A stretch of DNA of 64,000 nucleotides, from positions 310,001 through 374,000 of the forward strand of contig NZ_FOGD01000002.1 of the NCBI RefSeq assembly GCF_900111115.1. The letters run 5' to 3'. The notes under the pieces are model-generated. The model made no database searches and had not been told where the DNA came from. It saw only the letters and a program-made list of their open reading frames with translations. This document shows positions 5,181-7,652 of this stretch, piece by piece. Each line of letters begins with the position of its first letter. Positions within the stretch are counted from its first letter, which is position 1. Origin of the DNA: Giesbergeria anulus. Lineage in GTDB: Bacteria > Pseudomonadota > Gammaproteobacteria > Burkholderiales > Burkholderiaceae_C. The position numbers and the translations under genes are program-made.

Positions 5181-7652
5181 ATGTCTTCTGACCCCTTCAT
5201 GCCTATGGATGGTGGCTTTGCCCCCTACGATGACCGCGAGCTTTCGCAACTGCGCGTGCCGCCCCAATCCATCGAGTCAGAGTCCAGTGTGCTGGGTGGC
5301 TTGTTGCTGGACAACAATGCTTGGGAGCGGGTAGGTGATCTGTTGATGGAGACCGATTTTTACCGCCACGATCACCAGTTAATCTACTCCAGCATTGGCA
5401 AGCTCATCAACGAGAACAAGCCCGCTGACGTCATCACGGTGTATGAAAAGTTGCAAGGCATCGGCAAAGCCGAAGAGGTGGGCGGGCTGACCTATCTGAA
5501 CAGCTTGGCGCAGTACGTACCCAGCGCCAGCAACATTCGTCGCTATGCCGAAATCGTGCGCGAGCGCTCCATTTTGCGCAAACTGGTCACGGCCAGCGAT
5601 GAAATTGCCACCAATGCCTTCAACCCCCAAGGACGTCCAGTAGAAAAAATTCTGGACGAGGCCGAGCAAAAAATCTTCAATATCGGTGAAGAAGGCTCGC
5701 GGATGAAGCAGGGCTTTCAGCCGATGGAGCAGTTGGTCAGCACCCTAATGGGGCGCGTCCAAGAAATGGCCGACAACCCCAACGATATCACCGGCGTAGC
5801 CACTGGCTTTATTGACCTTGATCGCATGACTTCGGGGCTGCAAGCCGGGGACATGGTGGTGCTGGCAGCGCGGCCCTCGATGGGCAAGGCACAGCCACTG
5901 GATGCCCAAGTGCGCACCCGCACCGGCTGGAAGGCGATGGGCGACCTAGAGGTCGGCGACGGGCTGGCCTCAGTGGATGGCCGAGCCTCTATCGTTACGG
6001 GTATTTTTCCGCAAGGAGTGCGACAGGTCTATCGCCTGAGCTTCTCGGACGGGCGTAGCGCCGAAGCCTGCGCCGAACATTTATGGCGCGTGCATTGCCG
6101 ACACTGGCAAGCTGCCAAAGTACTCAGTACCGCTGACATCATGGCGTTGCTGGAAAAAACCCGCTACCAAGGGCGCTTATGGATAGATACGGCCAGTGGT
6201 GATTTTGGTCACCACGATCCCTTGCCCATCGACCCGTGGGTGCTAGGGGCTTTGTTGGGTGACGGTAGTTTGACAGGTACTGGCACGGTACGTTTTGCCA
6301 CGGCCTCGCCCCAGATGTTGGCAACCCTAGAGGCCCGTGTCGGTGCCGACATGACCGTGACCCATGCGCAAAACTATGATTACCGCATCGTGCGCCAAGA
6401 TCGGGGCCACGTGCTGGGGTTGCAAGGCGCACAGGCCAACCCCTTGCGGGTGGCGCTAGAGAGCCTACAGCTGTGGGGCTTGGCCAGCGATGCCAAGTTT
6501 ATTCCGCGTCTGTATCTGGAGGCCCATCGGGCCGCCCGTTTGGATGTATTGCGTGGCTTGCTCGATACCGATGGTTGGGTAGAGCGCTGGGGCAGCGTGC
6601 GCTTTTCTACCGCCAGCCCCCAATTGGCTCAGGATATGGCCGAACTGGTGCGCTCGCTGGGGGGCTGGTGCTCCATCAGCAGCAAAACGCCACATTACCG
6701 CAACAGCCACGGCCTGCGGGTGCCAGGGCTACCCGCCTATATTTGCCACATCGCCCATCCGCAGCCACGCTCACTGTTTCTGTTGTCAGAAAAACAGGCA
6801 CGCTTGCCGGTAGAGCGCCAACGGGCCAAGCGCCTCACCATCACTGGCATTGCTCCTAGCCGCGAAGCACCATGCCAGTGCATTGCCGTGAGCCACCCAG
6901 AACACTTGTACATCACCAATGACGATGTAGTCACGCATAACACCGCCTTTGCTGTGAACATTGCCGAGCATGTAGCCCTGCACGAAGGGTTGCCGGTAGC
7001 CATTTTCTCGATGGAAATGGGCGCTGCCCAATTGGCGGTACGGATCGTAGGCTCCATTGCCAAGGTAGATCAATCCCACCTGCGCAACGGCAGGCTGACC
7101 ACCGACGAATGGCCGCGCCTGACCGAAGCCATCGAAAAACTGCGCAATGTATCGTTGCATATTGACGAAACCCCCGGTCTGACCCCGTCAGAGTTGCGCG
7201 CCAATGCCCGGCGCTTGGCGCGCCAGTGTGGCCAGTTGGGGCTGATTGTGGTGGACTATTTGCAACTGATGAGCGGTTCGGCAGGCTCGCAAGGTGAAAA
7301 CCGCGCCACCGAATTGGGCGAGATTTCGCGCGGCCTCAAAATGCTGGCCAAGGAGCTGCAATGTCCGGTGATTGCGCTGTCACAGCTCAACCGCAGCGTA
7401 GAGACGCGCACCGACAAGCGCCCGATGATGTCGGATTTGCGCGAATCGGGTGCGATTGAGCAGGATGCAGACATCATCATGTTTATCTACCGTGATGACT
7501 ACTACAACAAAGACAGCAAAGAGCCCAATGTGGCCGAGATTATCATTGGCAAGCAGCGCAATGGCCCTACCGGTACCGTCAAGCTGTACTTTCAAAAATC
7601 CCAGACACGCTTTGAAAGTCTAGCTACGGGTGCCAACGACGGCGATTACTAA
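5181..7652 (+). CDS. dnaB: Replicative DNA helicase DnaB, interrupted by an in-frame intein
   Basis: Hexameric fork helicase that unwinds DNA 5'-3' and recruits DnaG primase. The ORF is 823 aa, but residues 237-587 are an intein; the spliced helicase would be 472 aa, the normal DnaB length. N-extein: primase-interacting N-domain (PPQSIESESSVLGGLLLD) and linker, then the RecA-like domain up to the Walker A AARPSMGK. C-extein resumes with TAFAVNIAEHVAL, restoring the P-loop SMGKTAF, and continues through Walker B (LIVVDYLQLM) and the arginine-finger/loop region (MSDLRESGAIEQDADIIMFIYRDDYY). Without splicing the P-loop is split, so the helicase should be inactive. AAGGAA lies before ATG 5181. 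Confidence 0.97.
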   Translation: MSSDPFMPMDGGFAPYDDRELSQLRVPPQSIESESSVLGGLLLDNNAWERVGDLLMETDFYRHDHQLIYSSIGKLINENKPADVITVYEKLQGIGKAEEVGGLTYLNSLAQYVPSASNIRRYAEIVRERSILRKLVTASDEIATNAFNPQGRPVEKILDEAEQKIFNIGEEGSRMKQGFQPMEQLVSTLMGRVQEMADNPNDITGVATGFIDLDRMTSGLQAGDMVVLAARPSMGKAQPLDAQVRTRTGWKAMGDLEVGDGLASVDGRASIVTGIFPQGVRQVYRLSFSDGRSAEACAEHLWRVHCRHWQAAKVLSTADIMALLEKTRYQGRLWIDTASGDFGHHDPLPIDPWVLGALLGDGSLTGTGTVRFATASPQMLATLEARVGADMTVTHAQNYDYRIVRQDRGHVLGLQGAQANPLRVALESLQLWGLASDAKFIPRLYLEAHRAARLDVLRGLLDTDGWVERWGSVRFSTASPQLAQDMAELVRSLGGWCSISSKTPHYRNSHGLRVPGLPAYICHIAHPQPRSLFLLSEKQARLPVERQRAKRLTITGIAPSREAPCQCIAVSHPEHLYITNDDVVTHNTAFAVNIAEHVALHEGLPVAIFSMEMGAAQLAVRIVGSIAKVDQSHLRNGRLTTDEWPRLTEAIEKLRNVSLHIDETPGLTPSELRANARRLARQCGQLGLIVVDYLQLMSGSAGSQGENRATELGEISRGLKMLAKELQCPVIALSQLNRSVETRTDKRPMMSDLRESGAIEQDADIIMFIYRDDYYNKDSKEPNVAEIIIGKQRNGPTGTVKLYFQKSQTRFESLATGANDGDY
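5889..6941 (+). mobile_element. Class 3-type intein with LAGLIDADG homing endonuclease in the DnaB P-loop
   Basis: 351-residue protein-splicing element lying exactly between Lys and Thr of the Walker A motif (SMGK/TAF). It starts with Ala rather than Cys/Ser (AQPLDAQVRTRTG). Block B has EACAEHLWRVH with His64 and Trp66; block F has CQCIAVSHPEHLYIT with Cys331 where most inteins have Asp; block G ends VVTHN with Thr349, His350, Asn351, followed by Thr as +1. Trp/Cys/Thr at these positions is the signature of class 3 inteins, which use the block F Cys as the first nucleophile. Endonuclease blocks C (VLGALLGDGSL, about 118-128), D (KFIP, 203-206) and E (LRGLLDTDGWV, 221-231) keep their acidic residues, so homing activity may be intact. 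No frameshift. Confidence 0.93.

Follow-up and report, generated by a model that had tools for sequence, protein, structure and literature searches.

The dnaB gene of Giesbergeria anulus, which encodes the replicative DNA helicase, lies in the 64,000-nucleotide stretch analysed here (contig NZ_FOGD01000002.1, positions 310,001 to 374,000; hereafter the window) and carries an in-frame insert that separates ...RPSMGK from TAFAV..., i.e. within the Walker A loop (P-loop) of DnaB. We are confident that this insert is a full-length class 3 intein occupying the P-loop site of DnaB, which is the DnaB-1/DnaB-b position of mycobacteria. Its anatomy, in window coordinates, is established as follows.

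5181..7652, + strand: dnaB precursor gene (replicative DNA helicase), 823 codons plus stop; TIGR00665, 571 bits
5181..5888, + strand: N-extein, 236 codons, ending ...RPSMGK (Walker A)
5889..6941, + strand: class 3 intein, 351 codons (dnaB codons 237-587), AQPLDA...VVTHN
6069..6071, + strand: Cys61, block B position 7 (B:7; CxxH replacing TxxH/DxxH)
6078..6086, + strand: His64 (B:10), Leu65 and Trp66 (B:12, the W of the Trp-Cys-Thr (WCT) triplet)
6225..6800, + strand: endonuclease domain, approximate limits (residues 113-304)
6240-6266, + strand: LAGLIDADG motif 1 with Asp125
6495-6497, + strand: Lys203 of the endonuclease domain
6549-6575, + strand: LAGLIDADG motif 2 with Asp228
6873..6881, + strand: Cys329-Gln-Cys331; Cys331 is F:4, the predicted first nucleophile, and Cys329 is F:2
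6933..6941, + strand: Thr349-His350-Asn351 (G:5-G:7)
6942..7649, + strand: C-extein, 236 codons, starting at the +1 Thr of the P-loop (6942-6944)

Pfam found DnaB_C split in two stretches around LAGLIDADG_3, NCBIfam likewise saw DnaB interrupted, and the intein has no stop codons. A genome search found a single dnaB; RadA accounts for the remaining DnaB_C match. An insertion in the P-loop of a single dnaB had been claimed in the original prediction, which was made from the sequence alone; this claim is borne out, and the residues and coordinates named in it are right.

Signature, fold and endonuclease of the intein

A phmmer search matched the window intein to the class 3 DnaB intein of Mycobacterium smegmatis (6bs8, E 2e-10), with Cys331, Trp66 and Thr349 aligned opposite Cys118, Trp67 and Thr137. 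Fold comparison, with alignments made by VIA-align 2, showed that the window intein has the HINT splicing fold, at 35% identity to the mycobacterial DnaB intein over the splicing domain. Sequence and fold both place Cys331 at block F position 4, the point on which the class assignment had been staked beforehand.

Conservation was counted in a set of DnaB P-loop inteins drawn from a scan of GTDB species genomes (76 loci), a scan of viral contigs (36 loci) and a search of 26 genomes of the genus (5 carriers). After removal of duplicates the set held 86 rows: 11 viral and 75 cellular, five of the latter being fragments. A single prophage element was counted in both collections (L076, L128), and the viral rows include two pairs of near copies. 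L016 and L027 were dropped because they duplicate L116 and L118, and L074 for its out-of-frame intein pieces; L129, which starts with Glu by the junction reading used, was excluded from the residue counts. Position 1, where the window intein has Ala1 and not Cys, Ser or Thr, is Ala in all 70 cellular and all 11 viral rows that cover the site. Cys331, Thr349, His350 and Asn351 are present in 86/86 rows, Trp66 and His64 in the 83/83 that cover them, and the +1 residue is Thr in 84 rows, as in the window, and Ser in two. In a larger tally that includes some duplicates, Cys331 was found in 118/118. Because the signature residues are invariant across the DnaB P-loop rows, chance is excluded. Signature, fold and conservation are thus established, and the noncontiguous class 3 signature that had been proposed stands on both the 6bs8 alignment and the 86 rows.

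The DnaB-1 intein of M. smegmatis (DnaBi1) and the DnaB intein of M. leprae also follow the P-loop Lys, and share Ala1, His B:10, Trp B:12, Cys F:4 and Thr G:5 with the window intein. They differ in having Ser at +1, and in being mini-inteins of 139 and 145 residues described without an endonuclease (PMC5222942), while the window intein is full-length. The founding class 3 member, the DnaB intein of mycobacteriophage Bethlehem, belongs to the same class and host gene, as cited in PMC3196547 and PMC7664689. Another betaproteobacterium, Burkholderia vietnamiensis, also has a class 3 intein, in IcmO (PMC5222942), but this one is a plasmid-borne mini-intein in a coupling-type protein, with Cys at +1. 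PI-SceI, the yeast VMA intein, differs in being class 1, in its host gene and in its identity of 17%.

The endonuclease domain of the window intein has both dodecapeptide motifs with the catalytic acids Asp125 and Asp228, matches Pfam LAGLIDADG_3 and has a PI-SceI-like fold. The motifs had been described as intact, and indeed Asp125, Asp228 and Lys203 are all kept. Comparison of the window species with its relative G015 over the endonuclease gave nonsynonymous (dN) over synonymous (dS) divergence of 0.017/0.21, and purifying constraint on the domain is established. Among cellular rows Asp125 is present in 72/74 and Asp228 in 74/75. Viral rows keep Asp125 in only 4/11, the others having Asn or His; the first endonuclease Asp is thus replaced in 7/11 viral (L122, L123, L125, L126, L127, L128 and L132, with two near-identical pairs) versus 2/74 cellular rows.

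Movement at the site and history within the genus

That the family moves horizontally at this site is established by comparison of inteins with their exteins. Inteins were more similar than their exteins in 1180 of 2485 pairs (71 rows), for example in Dyella versus Trinickia (intein 81%, exteins 56%), in a Phycisphaerae metagenome-assembled genome (MAG) versus a Desulfobulbaceae MAG (68 versus 43) and in the window versus a Thiobacillus MAG (74 versus 58). Although several of these pairs involve MAGs, Dyella flagellata and Trinickia are both named strains. Two gammaproteobacteria, L017 and L048, pair as sisters in the DnaB tree (99), but their inteins lie at a distance from one another in the intein tree, and a 26-row group of the intein tree was rejected by the exteins in the approximately unbiased (AU) test (p 1.6e-6). 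Because intein and DnaB trees conflict, the intein moves without its gene. L009, recorded as a Chitinophaga pinensis MAG, has a Malikia-like dnaB with the intein and is probably a misbinned contig.

Viral DnaB helicases carry inteins at the same site, and next to the viral dnaB of L119 and L127 lie genes for replication initiation, the primosome or terminase. Phages are therefore able to carry the intein. Since the viral inteins are only 44-57% identical to that of the window, they do not identify the donor of the window copy, and the phage origin that had been proposed gains same-site viral inteins but no donor. The 15 flanking proteins (761 to 26302) are housekeeping proteins by Pfam, including dnaK, grpE, rpsF, rplI, a RelA/SpoT-domain protein, PhoH, threonine synthesis and tRNA synthetase genes. 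No phage family was found among these 15 in the Pfam scan, with no phage library compared, and to that extent the reported absence of nearby phage genes is confirmed.

Of 26 genomes of the genus, one had a partial and two had no match; in the 23 determinable genomes, 5 carry the insert and 18 are uninterrupted, and the empty sites look like the two flanks joined together, with differences at 4-11 of 42 bases, mostly at third positions. The original prediction had suggested that the element may be recent in this lineage, i.e. that it entered the window lineage recently by homing. The 18 empty sites favour such an entry, as does the lower divergence of the intein than of the exteins relative to G022 (dS 0.64 versus 0.94, reversed in 16 of 1000 bootstrap draws; dN 0.058 versus 0.099). 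However, in the DnaB tree the window species groups with G015 and G022 in a single clade (99/96), and all three carry the intein, G015 covering only 42% of the columns. The intein dS to G022 also lies inside the range of neighbouring frames (0.22-0.81, with two antisense shadow frames, 0.04 and 0.16, excluded), so it is the G022 exteins that look fast and not the intein that looks young. The dS to G015 (0.26, interval 0.18-0.36) is not below that of the neighbours (about 0.07-0.24; C-extein 0.34-0.41), and the intein's third-position guanine plus cytosine content of 0.66 compares with 0.71 for each extein. We thus consider a recent entry unlikely: both close relatives carry the intein, and its divergence is at least that of typical neighbouring genes, although the bootstrap against G022 leans the opposite way. 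The lower divergence of the intein relative to the exteins towards G022 was dropped as a sign of recent transfer, because the neighbouring genes mark the exteins as the outlier. The exteins of the G022 dnaB (L116) are unusually diverged relative to neighbouring genes (dS 0.94, dN 0.10).

We read these results as residence of the intein going back at least to the ancestor shared by the window species, G015 and G022. In the careful tree (without the long or partial rows L124, L129, L039, L069, L075 and L077), the inteins of these three form one clade, joined to Malikia (95/88), whereas the G003 and G014 inteins fall in another part of the tree (96/95). G003 and G014 differ by a dS of 0.6 for inteins and for exteins alike.

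Proposed splicing, homing and a possible redox switch

We propose that the bond between Lys236 and Ala1 would be attacked directly by Cys331 to form the block F branched thioester, that the N-extein would then be transferred to the +1 Thr, and that Asn351 would cyclise and free the intein before an acyl shift closes ...SMGK-TAF.... Until splicing completes, DnaB would be unable to bind ATP, from which we infer that replication depends on splicing. For the DNA itself, we predict that the LAGLIDADG domain would cleave dnaB alleles lacking the intein, which would thereby be copied into them.

Splicing could also proceed without Cys331 if the +1 Thr attacked the N-terminal junction directly, as in class 2, with the WCT residues being structural. 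A first residue that is no nucleophile is common to class 2 and class 3, and only mutation of the F:4 Cys discriminates between them (PMC5222942). Nevertheless, with Cys331 invariant in both tallies, Trp66 and Thr349 conserved, and sequence and fold closest to a proven class 3 intein, we find this route very improbable. That the intein has decayed and cannot splice is hardly credible: a class 3 pseudogene is described in Arthrobacter (PMC3196547), but it is without the F:4 Cys and B:10 His that the window intein has, and the window intein, free of stops, resides in the only dnaB found in the genome.

Several points weigh against the interpretation of the insert as a class 3 intein with a working homing endonuclease. 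Pfam Intein_splicing, TIGR01443 and TIGR01445 gave no match to the window intein. The endonuclease may be currently active. In the genus, the window species, G015 and G003 carry intact motifs; however, the G022 endonuclease is broken by a 52-residue deletion (intein of 299 residues), and that of G014 has lost the motif 2 Asp. As for movement, one Comamonadaceae clade of the intein tree was not quite rejected (AU p 0.056), and although two genus intein lineages are starred in the careful tree, a single clade of the five carriers was not rejected either (AU p 0.23); on these two values whole-tree dating within the genus was set aside, and the five carriers may go back to one entry or to several.

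Block B of the window intein reads CxxH (Cys61-Ala-Glu-His64). Cys61 is found in 70/72 cellular and 11/11 viral rows, and its presence in 8 of the 12 phage and plasmid inteins sampled marks it as characteristic of a wider group. Cys329 is found in 42/75 cellular and 2/11 viral rows. In betaproteobacterial and phage DnaB P-loop inteins, Cys61 is in our reading an additional thiol in the active site, and Cys329, two residues ahead of the predicted nucleophile, adds a third in many of them. At B:7 DnaBi1 has Asp62 (PMC6195587), where the window intein has Cys, and a 2020 paper describes B:7 of class 3 as not conserved, with Gly or Asp in characterised inteins and Ser in its own (PMC7891396). A literature search for CxxH with class 3 found, among the matches listed, no intein paper using CxxH in this sense; one restriction enzyme paper uses the term otherwise. 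Splicing of DnaBi1 is blocked by a disulfide between Cys118 (F:4) and Cys48 (PMC6195587), and no cysteine counterpart of Cys48 was reported in the window intein. By analogy, Cys331 may be tied up reversibly in a disulfide with Cys61 or Cys329, which would stop splicing, and hence the supply of new helicase, under oxidative stress, so that the DnaBi1 outcome may be reached via a different partner cysteine. We offer this switch as a tentative and somewhat doubtful idea, and the conservation of Cys61 and Cys329 could equally reflect catalysis or packing. If true, it would be a second, independent case of a redox-controlled replication helicase, testable by simple assays.

Distribution and significance

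Full-length relatives were found in 20 of 397 sampled species of the family (any match in 28) and in 4 of 397 sampled species of the phylum (any match in 8), the own genome being counted in each. Some relative occurs in 553 phage and 38 plasmid records, and the eight phage and four plasmid examples inspected have the Trp, Cys and Thr in 12/12. The description of such inteins as rare is therefore better replaced by patchy. DnaB P-loop inteins 49-51% identical to that of the window also occur in another genus of the same order, in three genomes that are small at about 2 Mb (L163, L164, L165).

Other inteins were observed in the genome and genus. The genome of the window species (G000, contig C12, near 88545-89435) has a second class 3 intein of 297 residues with a part-deleted endonuclease (L110:11223-14048, - strand), in the P-loop (TTRAGK|T) of an SXT/TOL-type TraD coupling protein whose gene adjoins a MobH/TraI_2-like gene and a DUF4400 gene; the locus is probably an integrative conjugative element. 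Genus relatives L113 (G015), L082 and L114 (G014) and L115 (G012, partial) have a further DnaB intein of about 420 residues at DLRE|C...HN|SGAIEQ, which its first Cys and a match to Pfam Intein_splicing assign to class 1, and no intein occupies this DLRE|SGAIEQ site in the window dnaB. Pfam Intein_splicing and TIGR01443/TIGR01445 do match the class 1 intein of L113. A terminase-like protein of G021 (L112:5591-6607) has a class 3-like intein with Asn replacing the block B Trp.

In the literature surveyed, which left InBase and most subscription papers outside, betaproteobacterial DnaB P-loop inteins were not found reported, and a prior listing is possible. Class 3 inteins of the DnaB P-loop, described from mycobacteria and mycobacteriophages, are here extended to a full-length family with mostly intact endonuclease motifs, which is spread across Betaproteobacteria with jumps to other groups. 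Since the curated models miss the window intein, class 3 inteins are likely under-annotated, and so, probably, are the genes that bear them. One genus shows the empty, the active-looking and the broken states together, which makes the homing cycle testable.
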